Assembly: GCA_002762785.1 (NCBI GenBank)
Contig: PCXY01000005.1
Location: 252,796 to 316,795, forward strand
Reading direction: 5' to 3'
Length of the DNA stretch: 64,000 nucleotides
Source: Candidatus Woesearchaeota archaeon CG10_big_fil_rev_8_21_14_0_10_45_16
Lineage (GTDB): Archaea; Nanobdellota; Nanobdellia; Woesearchaeales; GW2011-AR9
Shown here: piece after piece, positions 26,662-50,184 of the stretch
Layout of the letters: each line of letters starts with the position of its first letter
Numbering within the stretch: position 1 is the first letter of the stretch
Program-made: the position numbers and the translations under genes
The notes under the pieces: model-generated
What the model was told of the DNA's origin: nothing
Databases searched by the model: none
The model's input: only the letters and a program-made list of their open reading frames with translations

Positions 26662-27066
26662 TTGAAAGTAGCAGCGTCAGGAAGAGACGGGGCTCGCAAG
26701 AGAACCCAGGAAAGTCCGCCCACCATCAAAAGGCAACTTCCAGAAGGAAGATGGGGAAATCCCATGGCTCTGGCTCAGAAACGACACGTCCTGCGGATAA
26801 AGGGATGATATGGCGAAGCTTCGAGCGATTGAAGTGAGTTCCTAAATGATCTGAAAAGATCTCCAGGTATAACCCGTTGACGTCTCCGCAGGGAACGATG
26901 AAACGGCGAAACCTTACTGAAAGCAAGAATTTCAGGGGCCCTGAAGATTATGGGCCTGGCCGGTGCAAGTCAGTATGACGCTTAGTAGAATACTTCCACG
27001 GATCATCGCATTGCCATCGCAATGTTTGGGTCTTACAGAAGGCGGCTTACGGCGCTCTACTTTCAT
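26662..27066 (+). ncRNA. rnpB: RNase P RNA
   Basis: Catalytic RNA of tRNA 5'-end maturation. Conserved regions are visible: CR-I AGGAAAGTCCGCC at 26708-26720, a GAAACGGCGAAACC stretch near 26900, and CR-V ACAGAAGGCGGCTTA at 27035-27049. The ends pair as P1: TGAAAGTAG at 26663-26671 with CTACTTTCA at 27057-27065, extended inward by AGCG/CGCT across a bulge. Length of about 405 nt suggests a mostly complete archaeal type A-like form. Protein partners Rnp1 and Rnp4 are in this window. Confidence 0.95.
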
Positions 27067-27109: not shown

Positions 27110-27283
27110 ATGAGCAAAGACGACAAGATCAGGATGCCCTCGGGACAAGGCGGAATCACCCGTTACTTTGAAGAGTCAGCTTCTAAGGTCCAGCTTTCTC
27201 CTGCTGCGGTACTGGTAGTAGCCATAACTATCATCATCCTTGTGGTTGCCCTTAACTACTTCGGCCTCGGTTTCTTCAGCTAA
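27110..27283 (+). CDS. secG: Preprotein translocase subunit Sec61beta
   Basis: 57-aa tail-anchored beta subunit of the SecYEbeta channel, too short to be caught by simple ORF filters. It has the family N-terminus with MPSGQGGITRYFEE, then a single C-terminal transmembrane helix (about residues 32-54) rich in Val and Ile. The large partner SecY is at 144-1556. The gene sits between rnpB and the NAC gene, each with its own promoter. Confidence 0.93.
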   Translation: MSKDDKIRMPSGQGGITRYFEESASKVQLSPAAVLVVAITIIILVVALNYFGLGFFS

Positions 27284-27340
27284 AGAGCGAGTCGGCATCG
27301 CTCACAAAGAATACGGCTTAGTCCATTTCAGAACAAGTAG

Positions 27341-27350
27341 TTTTATAAAA
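27341..27350 (+). promoter_or_regulatory. TATA box of the NAC gene
   Basis: TTTTATAAAA is centred about 26 nt before ATG 27372, which helps choose this start over the longer open frame. Confidence 0.7.
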
Positions 27351-27371
27351 ATCAGCTTTTTCTACATCTTT

Positions 27372-27710
27372 ATGTTACCAGGAATGAACCCACGGAAGAT
27401 GCAGCAAGTGATGAAGCAGATGGGCATCCAGCAAGTCGAGATCCCTGCTCAGGAAGTCATCATCAGGACTCGAGACAAAGACATCATCATCAGCAACCCT
27501 TCCGTCTCCAAGGTCAACATGATGGGCCAGGAGACTTTTCAGATTATGGGCACGGCCGTCGAACGGTCTCGAGACAGCAGACCGACCATCTCTGACGACG
27601 ATATCAAGACGGTGATGGGACAGACCGGCGTCTCCCGGGAAGAAGCTGAAAAAGCCATCGATGAAGCATCCGGCGACCTGGCCGAAGCTATCATGAAACT
27701 GATGCAATGA
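27372..27710 (+). CDS. nac: Nascent polypeptide-associated complex protein (NAC)
   Basis: 112-aa archaeal NAC, which binds ribosomes near the tunnel exit and shields nascent chains. The NAC domain starts MNPRKMQQVMKQMGI and includes VIIRTRDKDIIISNPSV and GQETFQIMGTAVE. A UBA domain closes it (DDDIKTVMGQTGVSREEAEKAI). The TATA box fixes the start at 27372. Its last codons overlap the next ORF as ATGA. Confidence 0.95.
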   Translation: MLPGMNPRKMQQVMKQMGIQQVEIPAQEVIIRTRDKDIIISNPSVSKVNMMGQETFQIMGTAVERSRDSRPTISDDDIKTVMGQTGVSREEAEKAIDEASGDLAEAIMKLMQ

Positions 27711-28171
27711 ATTCTACAGACGCAGCAGCCCTAGCCAGGGAGCGTTATCATGCCGCTTCCCACCTATTGACAGTAACCTATCCACTTATCAACGATCCCA
27801 AGCTGCTTATCGGCATCATCAATAACATTACAACAGCTCTGGAAGCTGCTCTTGATGCTATCTTGCTGCATGGCCGGGAACGGCAGACGATTCCACTTTA
27901 CAATACTACTTTACTAGGAAAAGTCGCCTGCTTCCGGGAAAACCTGATGCCCTGGCAGGAGATAAGCTCAAAATATGTCAACCTTCTGCTGGACCTTAAG
28001 AAAGTAGAAGAACTGCATCAGAAAAGTCCAGTGGAATTCTCACGAAGGGGCAATTTTATCATCTGCGGCAAAGAGTACGATCTTACTACCATAAGCCCGA
28101 AAGATATCAAGGAATACTTAAAACTGACTGGAGAGTTCTTGCAGGCGATGGAGCGGATCGTGCCCAGGTAG
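27707..28171 (+). CDS. Helical protein coupled to NAC, function unknown
   Basis: 154 aa, mostly alpha-helical, starting inside the NAC stop (ATGA). A hydrophobic helix (IINNITTALEAALDAILLH) is followed by a charged helix and a small strand region (RRGNFIICGKEYDL). The C-terminal helix has GEFLQAMERI. The next gene shows the same order of elements, so the two are probably paralogues. Coupling to NAC suggests a role near translation, as inference. Confidence 0.7.
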   Translation: MNSTDAAALARERYHAASHLLTVTYPLINDPKLLIGIINNITTALEAALDAILLHGRERQTIPLYNTTLLGKVACFRENLMPWQEISSKYVNLLLDLKKVEELHQKSPVEFSRRGNFIICGKEYDLTTISPKDIKEYLKLTGEFLQAMERIVPR

Positions 28172-28247: not shown

Positions 28248-28727
28248 ATGGAAGAATATTTATTAGAAGCGCGGGAAGAATTAAAACGTCTTGAACACAT
28301 CATATACGTCAGTCTCAAATATACGAGAACTGTCGACGTCATCATCAATGCCTTGAACCGCATGGTCGGCACCTTTGATAACATCATCGAAGCCTTTCTG
28401 GAAAAAGCTAAGGAAGAGGGCAAGATCGAATCGCTGCCTAAAAGTCCGGCTTTAAGAGCTAAAAGAGTTTCTGAGATCTACAGCGATGACGAAAAGCTGC
28501 AGCGATACCTCCACTTCTACACGTTTTTAAAAACTGTTCTCAAAGCTGAACCTGAAAAACGACAGGAATACCGCCGCCACGTTACGTTCATCGTCCCTCT
28601 GGAAAAGTCGACAGCAGAGATCAAGATCGACAACCTCACTTATGCTGAAAAATACATGCATGAGTTTCTGCAGTATGCAAGATTGAAGATCCTTGGCACT
28701 TCCGAAGAAGACGAAGACGAGTTCTGA
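28248..28727 (+). CDS. Helical protein, paralogue of the NAC-linked protein
   Basis: 159 aa with the same layout as the previous gene: an N-terminal helix pair (IINALNRMVGTFDNIIEAFLE), a middle helix, RRHVTFIV and a C-terminal HEFLQYARLKIL, plus an acidic end. No known domain is recognised; the helix pairing resembles small HEPN-like or bundle proteins but has no diagnostic motif. Confidence 0.7.
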   Translation: MEEYLLEAREELKRLEHIIYVSLKYTRTVDVIINALNRMVGTFDNIIEAFLEKAKEEGKIESLPKSPALRAKRVSEIYSDDEKLQRYLHFYTFLKTVLKAEPEKRQEYRRHVTFIVPLEKSTAEIKIDNLTYAEKYMHEFLQYARLKILGTSEEDEDEF

Positions 28728-28776: not shown

Positions 28777-29445
28777 ATGGAAATCCACTCTATCGTCCAG
28801 GAAAGAAGCCTTTTGAAACACCCGTTCTACCGACTGTGGCTGCAGGGGAAACTGCCTAAGGAAGCGCTGCAGAGATATACTACCCAGTATTTCCAGCTGG
28901 TGGCGCACCTGCCTCGTTTTATCAGTGCTATCCATAGCGACTGCGCAGATGAATCTACTAGAAAGATCCTTCTACAGAACCTGCGAGAGGAAGAGCTGGG
29001 CGAAGGCAACGGCAATGTCGCCCATACCAGATTATGGCTTGATTTTGCGGAAGAGCTGGGCGTCTCTGTAGAAGAGGTGATAAACGCTAAACTGCTGCCG
29101 GAAACGAAGCAGGCAGTGGAGACTATGCGCAGGTTATGTGATTCATCGACCGGCGAGGGAGCAGCGGCATTATATGCCTACGAGTCGCAGGTGCCGCAGA
29201 TCGCTGAAGAGAAGATCGCCGGATTAAAACAGCATTATGCTCTTGATTCTGAGAAAGCGCTGCGTTTCTTTATCGTCCATCAGGAAGCCGACAAGAAACA
29301 TGGCGCGGTCTGGGATGCTTTAATCAGGAAGCACCATGACGAAAAATGTGAACAAAGCGCTAAAGAAGCAGCAGAAGCTCTTTGGACAATGTTTGACGGT
29401 ATGCTGGAAGCCTATGTGCCGGAAGAAATAAGGATTGCTTGTTGA
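28777..29445 (+). CDS. CADD-like diiron oxygenase-fold protein, probable para-aminobenzoate synthase
   Basis: 222-aa protein of the heme-oxygenase-like fold (TenA/PqqC/CADD group). Ligand residues are placed as in Chlamydia CADD: Glu76-x6-His83, Glu136 in YAYESQVP, and His168-x3-Asp172-x2-His175. Lys146 lies ten residues after Glu136, as does the lysine CADD consumes, and Tyr135 precedes it. CADD converts its own tyrosine to pABA for folate. Folate enzymes FolC, ThyA, DHFR and GlyA are encoded at 46-50 kb. A thiaminase-like TenA role is less likely from these residues. Confidence 0.75.
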   Translation: MEIHSIVQERSLLKHPFYRLWLQGKLPKEALQRYTTQYFQLVAHLPRFISAIHSDCADESTRKILLQNLREEELGEGNGNVAHTRLWLDFAEELGVSVEEVINAKLLPETKQAVETMRRLCDSSTGEGAAALYAYESQVPQIAEEKIAGLKQHYALDSEKALRFFIVHQEADKKHGAVWDALIRKHHDEKCEQSAKEAAEALWTMFDGMLEAYVPEEIRIAC

Positions 29446-46198: not shown

Positions 46199-47434
46199 TC
46201 AATGAAGACTTTCTTTTAAGAACTTCAGAGCATCGCCGATCATGTACAATGAACCGGTAGCCAACAGAAGACCGTCTTTCTGGAATTCAAGCCCTTTCTC
46301 TACTGCTTCTTTGATATCAGGGATGATCAAAACCTTATCAGTATGTTTCTTCACTTCTTCAGCTAAAATGTCCGCCGGCAATGGTTTATGGCTGCCTTCA
46401 GTGACGATAATATCCCGAAACAAAGGAACTAGCATCTGCACGATCTTTTCTTTTTCTTTATCTTTGGCCAAAGCCAGGACCAACACATCTTTTTTCTCGA
46501 TAGTCTGTAAAAATGCCGCCAACGTTTCTACACCCGCAACGTTATGGGCTCCGTCTACGATAATCAATGGTTTTCTGGAAACGATCTCCAGCCGGCCCGG
46601 CCAGAAAGCTTCCCGCAAACCTTTCTCCAAAGATACTTCAGGGATCTTCAATCCAGAAACGGCTATAGCCTTGGCGGCAAGAGCAGCATTCTTTACCTGA
46701 TGCTTGCCGTCCATGGAGATCAGATATTTTTTCCCTGAGAAGAGAAACTGCTGTTTTCCTAAGGTTGATGATAAGATTTGCGGAGCCTCTATGATATGCA
46801 TCGGACTTTTTTTCTTGAGACACTCTTCCTTGAATAGATAAAATACTGTCTGGTCTTCTTCTGCGGTCACCAGAGGGATGCCCCTCTTGATGATGGCTGC
46901 TTTTTCTTTCGCGATCTGTTCTTTCGTATCGCCAAGGATGTCCATGTGATCAAAATTGATGTTTGTGATGACCGAAACAAGCGGCGTGAGGACATTGGTC
47001 GCATCTAACCGACCGCCGAGACCGACTTCGATGACGGCAACGTCGACTTTCTTTTTGGCGAAATAAAGAAAAGCTAAGGCCGTAGTGAATTCGAAGAAAG
47101 TCGTCTCGATGGAATTTTCTTCAATGGCTGCTCGGATCTTCTTGATAAGCTGTACCAGATCGCCGTCAGTGATATCTAAACCATCGACCTTTATCCTCTC
47201 ATTGAATTTGATAAGGTGAGGACTAGTGTACAGGCCAACGGATAACCCTGCCGCTTTTAAGATAGAAGCTAGGTAACTGCAAGTACTGCCCTTGCCGTTA
47301 GTTCCAGCCACCTGGATGGTCTTGAACGAATGCTGCGGGTTGCCCAAGACTATAAGCAGCTGCTCCATCCGCTCCAGTCCCAGCCTGACGCCGAACAACT
47401 GAAGGTTGTACAAGTAATCAAGTTCCTGATCCAT
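46199..47434 (-). CDS. folC: Folylpolyglutamate / dihydrofolate synthase
   Basis: 411-aa Mur-ligase-type enzyme adding glutamate to folates. P-loop GTNGKGST at residues 44-51, the omega-loop TSPHLIKFNERIKVDG, ATP-site FDHMDILGD and C-terminal VDGAHN are all present. It converges with the S2P gene and diverges from thyA. With ThyA, DHFR and GlyA it makes a folate cluster. Confidence 0.95.
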   Translation of the reverse strand: MDQELDYLYNLQLFGVRLGLERMEQLLIVLGNPQHSFKTIQVAGTNGKGSTCSYLASILKAAGLSVGLYTSPHLIKFNERIKVDGLDITDGDLVQLIKKIRAAIEENSIETTFFEFTTALAFLYFAKKKVDVAVIEVGLGGRLDATNVLTPLVSVITNINFDHMDILGDTKEQIAKEKAAIIKRGIPLVTAEEDQTVFYLFKEECLKKKSPMHIIEAPQILSSTLGKQQFLFSGKKYLISMDGKHQVKNAALAAKAIAVSGLKIPEVSLEKGLREAFWPGRLEIVSRKPLIIVDGAHNVAGVETLAAFLQTIEKKDVLVLALAKDKEKEKIVQMLVPLFRDIIVTEGSHKPLPADILAEEVKKHTDKVLIIPDIKEAVEKGLEFQKDGLLLATGSLYMIGDALKFLKESLH

Positions 47435-47526
47435 AAGCTGTTGAGGAGTTGTTTTTTTAAAAAGGTTCTAGTCGGTTACCACAATCTATTTAAACGTTCA
47501 AGATCCATGGATGATGGGTGGTTTCG

Positions 47527-48423
47527 ATGAGACAATATCTAGATCTGCTAAAATTTGTTCTTGAGAAAGGTGAAGAGAAACACGACCGTACTGGCGTGGG
47601 GACGATAAGCACTTTTGGTTATCAGATGCGGTTTGATCTTCAGAAAGGATTTCCTCTGCTGACTACCAAAAAAGTGTTTACTAAAGCGATAATCCATGAA
47701 CTTATCTGGTTCCTTCAGGGAGACACCAACATCCGTTATCTGGTACAGAATGGTGTCCGGATCTGGAACGAATGGCCGTTCCAGAAATACTTGAAAGAGA
47801 ACGATCTAGAACAGCAATATCCTCAATATTCTGAAGCCTGGACGCAAAAGATGGCAGAGTTTGTCGAGAACGTCAAGAATGATGAAGAGTTCGCCAAAAG
47901 ATGGGGCGATCTTGGTCCTGTATATGGTAAACAGTGGCGTGATTTCAACGGTGTCGATCAGATCTCTGAAGTCATCAGCCAGATCAAGAACGATCCGGGA
48001 AGCCGCAGGATGATCGTCTGCCCTTGGAACCCGGCAGAGGTCCATAAGATGGCCCTGCCGCCCTGTCATTGTTTTTTCCAGTTCTATGTCAATGACGGAA
48101 AGTTGTCGTGCCAGCTGTATCAACGAAGCTGCGATGTTTTTCTGGGAGTTCCTTTCAACATCGCTTCCTATGCCTTGCTGACGATGATGGTAGCTCATGT
48201 CTGCAACCTGCAGCCAGGTGAGTTCGTCTGGACAGGCGGGGATGTACATATCTATTCAAACCATCTTGAACAGGTGAAAGAACAGCTTAGCCGGGAACCA
48301 AGAGCCTTGCCAACGATGAAGATCAACCCCGAGGTTAAAAGTATCTTTGACTTCAAGTTTGAAGATTTCACTTTGGAAGAGTATGATCCCCATCCGGCAA
48401 TCAAAGCGCCGGTGGCCGTATGA
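47527..48423 (+). CDS. thyA: Thymidylate synthase ThyA
   Basis: 298-aa folate-dependent dTMP synthase. Catalytic Cys180 is in [12 protein letters not shown], and [20 protein letters not shown] is the folate/dUMP region. Start at ATG 47527 is preceded by GGTGG at a Shine-Dalgarno distance; an upstream GTG at 47518 is also possible. Overlaps DHFR by 4 nt. The product DHF is recycled by that enzyme. Confidence 0.97.
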
Positions 48424-48896
48424 TCTCCATAATAGTCGCCATGACCAAGGACAGAGTCATCGGTAGAGATAACGACCTGCCGTGGCATCTGCCGGAGGAT
48501 CTCAAGAACTTTAAGAGCCTGACGACTGGCAACACCGTCATCATGGGGCGGAAGACTTATGAGAGCATCCCTCAAAAATTTAGACCGTTGCCAAACAGGC
48601 ATAATATCGTAATCAGCCGTTCCATGCCTATGGCAGAAGGGATAACGGTAGCCAGAAGTGTTGAAGAAGCCGTCATCAAAGCGAGAGAGATAGGGAAAGA
48701 AGCGTTTATCATCGGCGGCGGAACCATATACAGGCAATCTTTGCCTTTCACTGATCGGATGTATATATCCTATGTTGCAAAAGATTATGAAGGCGATGTG
48801 CGTTTCCCAAAATTTGAAGAGAGAGAGTGGATAGTTGAACGTGAAGAAAAATTTGACGAATTTACCTTGGTGGTGTATACAAAAAATGGAACATAA
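48420..48896 (+). CDS. folA: Dihydrofolate reductase
   Basis: 158-aa DHFR. It has [37 protein letters not shown] and [22 protein letters not shown]. Its ATG overlaps the thyA stop, so the two steps of dTMP/folate recycling are coupled. Length is typical for bacterial-type DHFR, and transfer from bacteria is likely. Confidence 0.97.
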
Positions 48897-50184
48897 AGAC
48901 CCGGAAGTATGGAAGCACATGCAGGCTGAACTGCAAAGACAGCAGACTGTCCTCAACATGATCCCGTCAGAGAATTATGTAAGCAACACCGTGTTGCAGG
49001 CGGCCGGGAGCGTGCTTACCAACAAGTACAGCGAAGGGTATCCCAAGAAAAGGTATTATCAGGGAAATTCTCATGTTGATGAGATCGAACTGCTGGCTAT
49101 CGAAAGGGCGCAAAGACTATTCGGCGCCGAACACGTTAATGTACAATCTCTTTCCGGCAGCCCGGCCAACCAGGCTGTCTTCCACGCTTTATTGAACCCG
49201 GGGGACAAGATTATGGGCATGCGCCTGGACATGGGAGGTCATCTCACGCATGGCCACAGCGTCAATTTTTCGGCCCGTTATTATCAGACCGTGCAGTATG
49301 GCGTCGATCCGGAAACGGAACTATTAGACATGGAAGCTATCCGGCAATTAGCGTTGAAAGAAAAACCTAAGATCATCGTCTCCGGCGCCACAGCTTATCC
49401 ACGGCTGATCGATTTCAATGCCTTCCAAAAGATCGCTGATGAGGTCGGAGCTTATACTCTAGCCGATATCAGCCATATCGCTGGATTGGTGGCTGGCGGC
49501 GTGCATCCGACGCCATTCCCTTTTACCGACGTAGTCATGACCACCACCCATAAGACTCTTCGCGGACCGAGAAGCGCCATGATCATGTGCAAGAATGAAG
49601 ATCGGCTGGCTAATGTGGAAGGATTAGATGAGAAGCAGGCTAAAAAAGAAAGGGACATGGCCGGCAAGATCGACAGGGCTGTCTTCCCCGGATTGCAAGG
49701 AGGACCGCACAATCATATCACTGCTGCCAAAGCGGTGGCGTTCGGCGAAGCGCTGACTTATGATTTCAGGATGTATGCAGAGCAGATCGTCAAGAACGCT
49801 AAAGCTCTGGCTGAATCATTGATGGGCAACGGCATAAAATTGGTGACAAACGGCACAGATAATCATCTTATCCTTATCGACTTACGGCCGATGGGCATCG
49901 GCCTCGGAAGAGATGCTGCCGTGGCCTTGGAAGAAGCCGGGATCATCACCAACTGCAATACTGTTCCGTATGATCCCTCAACACCGTTCAAACCATCTGG
50001 AGTAAGGATCGGCACCCCTTCATTAACGTCGCAAGGCATGAAAGAGCCGGAGATGCGGCAGATCGGCGAATGGATGGCTGCTGTACTGAAAGATATGGGT
50101 AATACTGCTCTTAAACAGAAGATAAAAGAAGACGTGAAAGAGTTGTGTTCTCGGTTCCCTATCTACCAAGGAAGGGAATGTTAA
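48886..50184 (+). CDS. glyA: Serine hydroxymethyltransferase
   Basis: 432-aa PLP enzyme interconverting serine and glycine with a C1 folate. PLP lysine is in TTTHKTLRGPR (Lys223). The start [12 protein letters not shown] at 48886 overlaps DHFR by 11 nt; the longer frame from 48835 is less likely. It completes the thyA-folA-glyA operon. Confidence 0.96.
   Translation: MEHKDPEVWKHMQAELQRQQTVLNMIPSENYVSNTVLQAAGSVLTNKYSEGYPKKRYYQGNSHVDEIELLAIERAQRLFGAEHVNVQSLSGSPANQAVFHALLNPGDKIMGMRLDMGGHLTHGHSVNFSARYYQTVQYGVDPETELLDMEAIRQLALKEKPKIIVSGATAYPRLIDFNAFQKIADEVGAYTLADISHIAGLVAGGVHPTPFPFTDVVMTTTHKTLRGPRSAMIMCKNEDRLANVEGLDEKQAKKERDMAGKIDRAVFPGLQGGPHNHITAAKAVAFGEALTYDFRMYAEQIVKNAKALAESLMGNGIKLVTNGTDNHLILIDLRPMGIGLGRDAAVALEEAGIITNCNTVPYDPSTPFKPSGVRIGTPSLTSQGMKEPEMRQIGEWMAAVLKDMGNTALKQKIKEDVKELCSRFPIYQGREC

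Follow-up and report, generated by a model that had tools for sequence, protein, structure and literature searches.

How does an archaeon with a small genome, equipped to use folate but lacking the chorismate route, obtain the pABA that folate contains? CADD-type enzymes offer one answer, as they consume two of their own residues in forming the aromatic moiety of folate. We analysed a 64,000-nucleotide stretch of the genome of Candidatus Woesearchaeota archaeon CG10_big_fil_rev_8_21_14_0_10_45_16 (contig PCXY01000005.1, positions 252,796 to 316,795; hereafter the window), in which a reading made from the sequence alone had picked out one open-reading frame as a candidate CADD-like pABA synthase. 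Our analysis indicates that this gene very probably encodes a self-sacrificing pABA synthase of the CADD type, which would provide pABA for folate synthesis in an archaeon that has no chorismate route. The case is built on homology, catalytic residues, a predicted fold, the absence of chorismate enzymes, the presence of FolB, FolK, FolP, FolC and FolA and co-occurrence with FolP in relatives, and from these we infer activity, mechanism, and metal and O2 use. The features discussed are collected in Table 1.

Table 1. Features of the locus, the folate genes of the window and a paralogue in a relative (window coordinates unless a locus is given).
Feature	Position	Strand	Evidence
Archaeal RNase P RNA, 1.7 kb upstream of the CADD gene	26679..27062	+	Rfam RF00373, 109.7 bits vs 84
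Archaeal alpha-NAC	27240..27710	+	Profile; synteny
Candidate self-sacrificing pABA synthase of the CADD family (222 aa, starts with ATG)	28777..29445	+	Profile, PDB match, predicted fold
Tyr18 (CADD Tyr27), putative sacrificed side chain giving the pABA ring	28828..28830	+	Alignment; Tyr in 92/92 family rows; role from homologues (PMC11965152)
Glu72 (CADD Glu81), predicted metal ligand	28990..28992	+	Alignment
Four-residue insert GNVA (79-82) ahead of His83, between the first two ligands	29011..29022	+	Alignment, model
His83 (CADD His88), predicted metal ligand	29023..29025	+	Alignment
Tyr135 (CADD Tyr141), metal-preference residue, and Glu136 (CADD Glu142), predicted ligand	29179..29184	+	Alignment
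Lys146 (CADD Lys152), putative amine donor	29212..29214	+	Alignment; Lys in 91/91 rows with a residue there
Phe164 (position of CADD Tyr170), metal-preference residue	29266..29268	+	Alignment
His168, Asp172, His175 (CADD His174, Asp178, His181), predicted ligands	29278..29301	+	Alignment
FolC, dihydrofolate/folylpolyglutamate synthase	46199..47434	-	TIGR01499, 384 bits vs cut-off 162.65
ThyA, thymidylate synthase	47518..48423	+	PF00303, E 1.3e-124
FolA, dihydrofolate reductase (DHFR)	48420..48896	+	PF00186, E 8.3e-53
GlyA, serine hydroxymethyltransferase, start approximate	48913..50184	+	PF00464, E 6.3e-154
Sub-cut-off CADD-like paralogue in relative G479 (others: L003, L004)	L135:4729-5487	-	

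Folate genes without a chorismate route

The sequence-only reading had named FolC, ThyA, DHFR and GlyA in the window, all four of which are confirmed by profile, and had pointed to FolP and FolB as the enzymes to look for; family searches find both, along with FolK, in the genome (1,178,529 bases, or 1.18 Mb, 98.27% complete), where the FolP gene is broken in the genome sequence by a run of N. Neither the chorismate-binding enzyme (PF00425, PabB/TrpE) nor chorismate synthase (PF01264) was found in this genome, while each search was positive in 14 of 14 control genomes, so the complete chorismate pathway to pABA that would have told against a CADD-type route is absent. The earlier proposal that such a route provides pABA without chorismate enzymes is thereby supported, with FolP, FolK and FolB present and activity predicted from homology, and, because the usual pathway is missing, the CADD protein appears to be the only internal source of pABA in the cell.

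A search of this genome gave no GTP cyclohydrolase I (FolE type I, PF01227), which leaves the first pterin step without an assigned enzyme unless the cell has an MptA/FolE2. An unnamed 132-residue open-reading frame on contig C4 of the genome (L123:7534-7932) overlaps folB at its start; it matches no Pfam family above cut-off and is possibly a partner in the pterin branch. The CADD gene itself does not lie beside the folate genes in its own genome. The genome encodes a superoxide dismutase and the window a peroxiredoxin, as would suit a cell exposed to O2; as a marker of O2, superoxide dismutase proved non-discriminating, being found in 38 of 45 relatives with or without CADD.

A full member of the CADD family

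The open-reading frame matches the CADD family profile (NCBIfam TIGR04305) with 247.6 bits (E = 9.6e-74, curated cut-off 200), a score far above what chance would give, and no other match of this kind occurs in the genome. Searched against the PDB, its sequence matches two 4-aminobenzoate synthases and CT610/CADD best (E ~1e-38). Phage and plasmid records gave distant matches only, with <30% identity among the matches listed, and no meaningful RNA structure was found at the start of the gene (z = -0.92).

Alignment to CADD bears out the three residue patterns first noticed from the sequence: all six metal ligands are present (E72, H83, E136, H168, D172 and H175), ten residues separate E136 from K146, and Tyr135 stands ahead of Glu136. 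These six ligands are, however, common to related oxygenases. The residues which that reading left unnamed, Y18, the most telling of all, and Y34, Y38 and W87 (equivalent by alignment to CADD Tyr43, Tyr47 and Trp92), are likewise all found in the open-reading frame. Across 92 family rows (80 loci from a genome collection, ten archaeal relatives, the window open-reading frame and CADD) the positions matching Y27, Y43, Y47 and W92, those of the six ligands and that of K152 never vary, bar one gap at the Lys. In the pABA synthase of Nitrosomonas europaea (NePabS), mutation of the counterparts of Tyr43, Tyr47 and Trp92 abolishes or lowers activity (PMC11965152). The open-reading frame is thus a full CADD-family member that shows every testable feature of the family, with clustering among folate genes seen only in its relatives.

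Three paralogues below the family cut-off, from related archaea, keep most of the ligands and lack the equivalents of Lys152 and Tyr43; those of G164 and G085 lack both the sacrificed Tyr27 and the Lys, and that of G479 lacks the Lys. They look like dimetal oxygenases of these archaea, and because they retain most ligands without the Lys and Tyr43, the ligands by themselves are weak evidence.

Distribution and folate operons in relatives

CADD above cut-off occurs in 11 of 353 genomes of the order, and the 11 span six families. FolP, counted as strong PF00809 matches in short frames with long multi-domain proteins (most ~640 aa or more) and fragments left out, occurs in 21 of the 353. All 11 CADD-positive genomes encode FolP vs. 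10 of the 342 others (Fisher p = 1.6e-15, kinship ignored), whilst the chorismate-binding enzyme PabB is found in none of the 11 vs. five of the ten FolP-positive genomes without CADD (p = 0.012). In one relative (G495) the folate operon reads folE-folB-CADD-folP-folK, and in another (G378) CADD is directly upstream of folP; two others carry folE-pabB-pabA-pabC-folP-folB-folK (G295) and pabB-pabA-pabC-folP-folB-folK (G374), the pab names there following the best-fitting families and position, with several scores under equivalog cut-offs. Taken together, these operons show one CADD gene in the place of three pab genes within the order. Among 80 bacterial CADD loci the tested folate genes are rarely nearby (one locus, FolE), and close to three Chloroflexota loci are genes resembling PabB or TrpE.

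An above-cut-off CADD and a chorismate-binding enzyme are both missing from five FolP-positive genomes (G322, G336, G254, G400 and G479). Salvage of pABA, a different route or incompleteness of the genomes may account for this, and folate synthesis can thus be sustained in them through salvage or a different route. In G336 the operon reads folE-folB-folK-X-folP, where X (225 aa, L132:6042-6716, minus strand, protein P0002) has no Pfam or NCBIfam match and shows, by eye, a His-x-Asp...His...Arg pattern like that of 2-oxoglutarate/Fe oxygenases; a third route to pABA may involve X. In G334 an open-reading frame directly upstream of folP (L124:7014-7580, minus strand) has no family above cut-off, resembles Nudix hydrolases by eye and is possibly a dihydroneopterin triphosphate pyrophosphatase.

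These distributions bear on the alternative that survives best, a dimetal oxygenase of the heme-oxygenase-like kind with a different small substrate and no more than a resemblance to CADD. The superfamily is catalytically diverse, its members share the six ligands, and the sub-cut-off paralogues of unassigned role in related genomes lend the idea some room. Against this, the open-reading frame scores above the CADD cut-off whilst the paralogues are without the Lys and Tyr43, and in two cases without the sacrificed Tyr, and FolP accompanies the gene in every genome that has it, with folate operons in relatives; we regard this alternative as improbable.

Predicted structure and neighbouring families

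An AlphaFold model of the protein, built from 33 sequences, was obtained with high confidence (pLDDT 94.6, pTM 0.91), and its top Foldseek match is CADD (1rcw; TM 0.92 by target length, rmsd 1.6, 37% identity). The GNVA insert is placed by the model in a loop between predicted helices 59-74 and 83-93. Four residues are also inserted in the archaeal sequences L097, L098, L099 and L101, and three at the same loop in the bacterial rows L012, L015 and L038. We dropped the idea that the insert breaks the metal site, given its loop position and its recurrence in relatives whose catalytic residues are all intact.

PqqC (PDB 1otv, 1otw) shares the heme-oxygenase-like helical bundle, and an enzyme of the PqqC or TenA type, working in PQQ synthesis or thiamine salvage, would have the same fold and does give weak profile matches. 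These reach only 71.9 bits for PqqC (TIGR02111, cut-off 240) and 13.1 bits for TenA thiaminase II (TIGR04306, cut-off 130), so far under both cut-offs that we rejected filing the open-reading frame in either family, and the thiamine-salvage signal which the sequence-only reading had set against its own proposal does not appear. PqqC structures fit the model at TM ~0.75 by target length, the PqqC match in the PDB sequence search is ~27 orders of magnitude weaker than those to CADD and the 4-aminobenzoate synthases, and identity to PqqC is ~20%, which makes a function of this type highly improbable.

Archaeal origin of the locus

Between the alpha-NAC gene and CADD lie two small open-reading frames (27707-28171 and 28248-28727), neither with a Pfam family above cut-off, which keep their place in two related genomes. 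The order alpha-NAC, two small open-reading frames, CADD recurs in G359 and, with one extra open-reading frame, in G334, where the CADD proteins share 66% and 59% identity, respectively, with that of the window; this conserved synteny and identity indicate that the gene is old in the family. In a tree whose bacterial sampling comprised the 80 best loci only, the 11 archaeal CADD sequences group (support 98/90) with one Peregrinibacteria (CPR) sequence inside. In gene content the genome is archaeal, and its small size suggests a DPANN lineage. The wider family is bacterial (80 of the 80 loci retained from the collection), which is all that would favour a bacterial contaminant in this metagenome-assembled genome, a reading of vanishing probability given the archaeal cluster in the tree and excluded by the archaeal RNase P RNA and alpha-NAC just upstream and by the synteny shared with two relatives.

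Comparison with characterised enzymes and metal preference

The candidate pABA synthase shares with CADD (CT610 of Chlamydia trachomatis; PDB 1rcw, 8va9) the ligands and the equivalents of Tyr27, Tyr43, Tyr47, Trp92, Tyr141 and Lys152, as well as the fold, as predicted by the model, and both genes replace absent pab genes. Placement in a folate operon is seen for CADD in Chlamydia (PMC1971073) and for the archaeal gene in G495 and G378. The two differ in sequence (~37-39% identity), in the Phe at the Tyr170 position, in the four-residue loop insert and in the archaeal host. The residues tested in NePabS (NE1434), namely Tyr25, Tyr41, Tyr45, Trp99 and Lys159 (PMC11965152), are all conserved in the archaeal protein, and NePabS, like the archaeal gene in its own genome, is encoded away from folate biosynthesis genes (PMC11965152). 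The closest solved chain, at ~44% identity, is a 4-aminobenzoate synthase (PDB 9pj4), which resembles Nitrosomonas sequences.

In NePabS the two residues next to the metals are Phe/Phe and Fe/Fe is the preferred metal set, whereas the archaeal protein has Tyr/Phe, as in the F148Y variant of NePabS, which shows similar activity with Fe/Fe and Mn/Fe (PMC11965152). Because this variant works with both metal sets, we predict by analogy that the archaeal enzyme would be metal-flexible and accept either. Three natural classes occur at this pair of positions among the 92 rows (Tyr/Phe in 39, Phe/Phe in 30 and Tyr/Tyr in 23); for the commonest, Tyr/Phe, the cited literature on the family reports no wild-type enzyme.

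Proposed mechanism and implications

On the model drawn from CADD and NePabS (PMC11965152, PMC13108848), E72, H83, E136, H168, D172 and H175 would hold a dimetal site at which O2 is activated, and a radical would be relayed via aromatic residues (e.g. Y135, Y38 and W87) to Y18. The C-alpha/C-beta bond of Y18 would then be broken and the freed side chain oxidised with O2 to give the carboxylate, with K146 donating the amine; one pABA would be released per protein, to be coupled to the pterin by FolP and passed on to FolC and DHFR.

The self-sacrificing pABA synthases characterised to date come from two bacteria, and the holders given in PMC11965152 are all bacterial; a full-text search of the open-licence literature found no publication on an archaeal one. 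The present gene thus adds archaea to the holders of an enzyme type that is itself already known. A broader scenario, in which an O2-dependent self-sacrificing route became established in this DPANN-like order through a single acquisition, shared with a CPR lineage, that replaced pabABC in the folate operon, and in which the G336 enzyme between folK and folP is an O2-using third pABA route, so far undescribed, in a genome with neither of the other two, seems to us unlikely as a whole.

If the archaeal enzyme is active, an enzyme that yields one product per protein reaches the archaeal domain, and the completion of folate in chorismate-less archaea with small genomes would be explained. These cells would then need O2 to make a vitamin.
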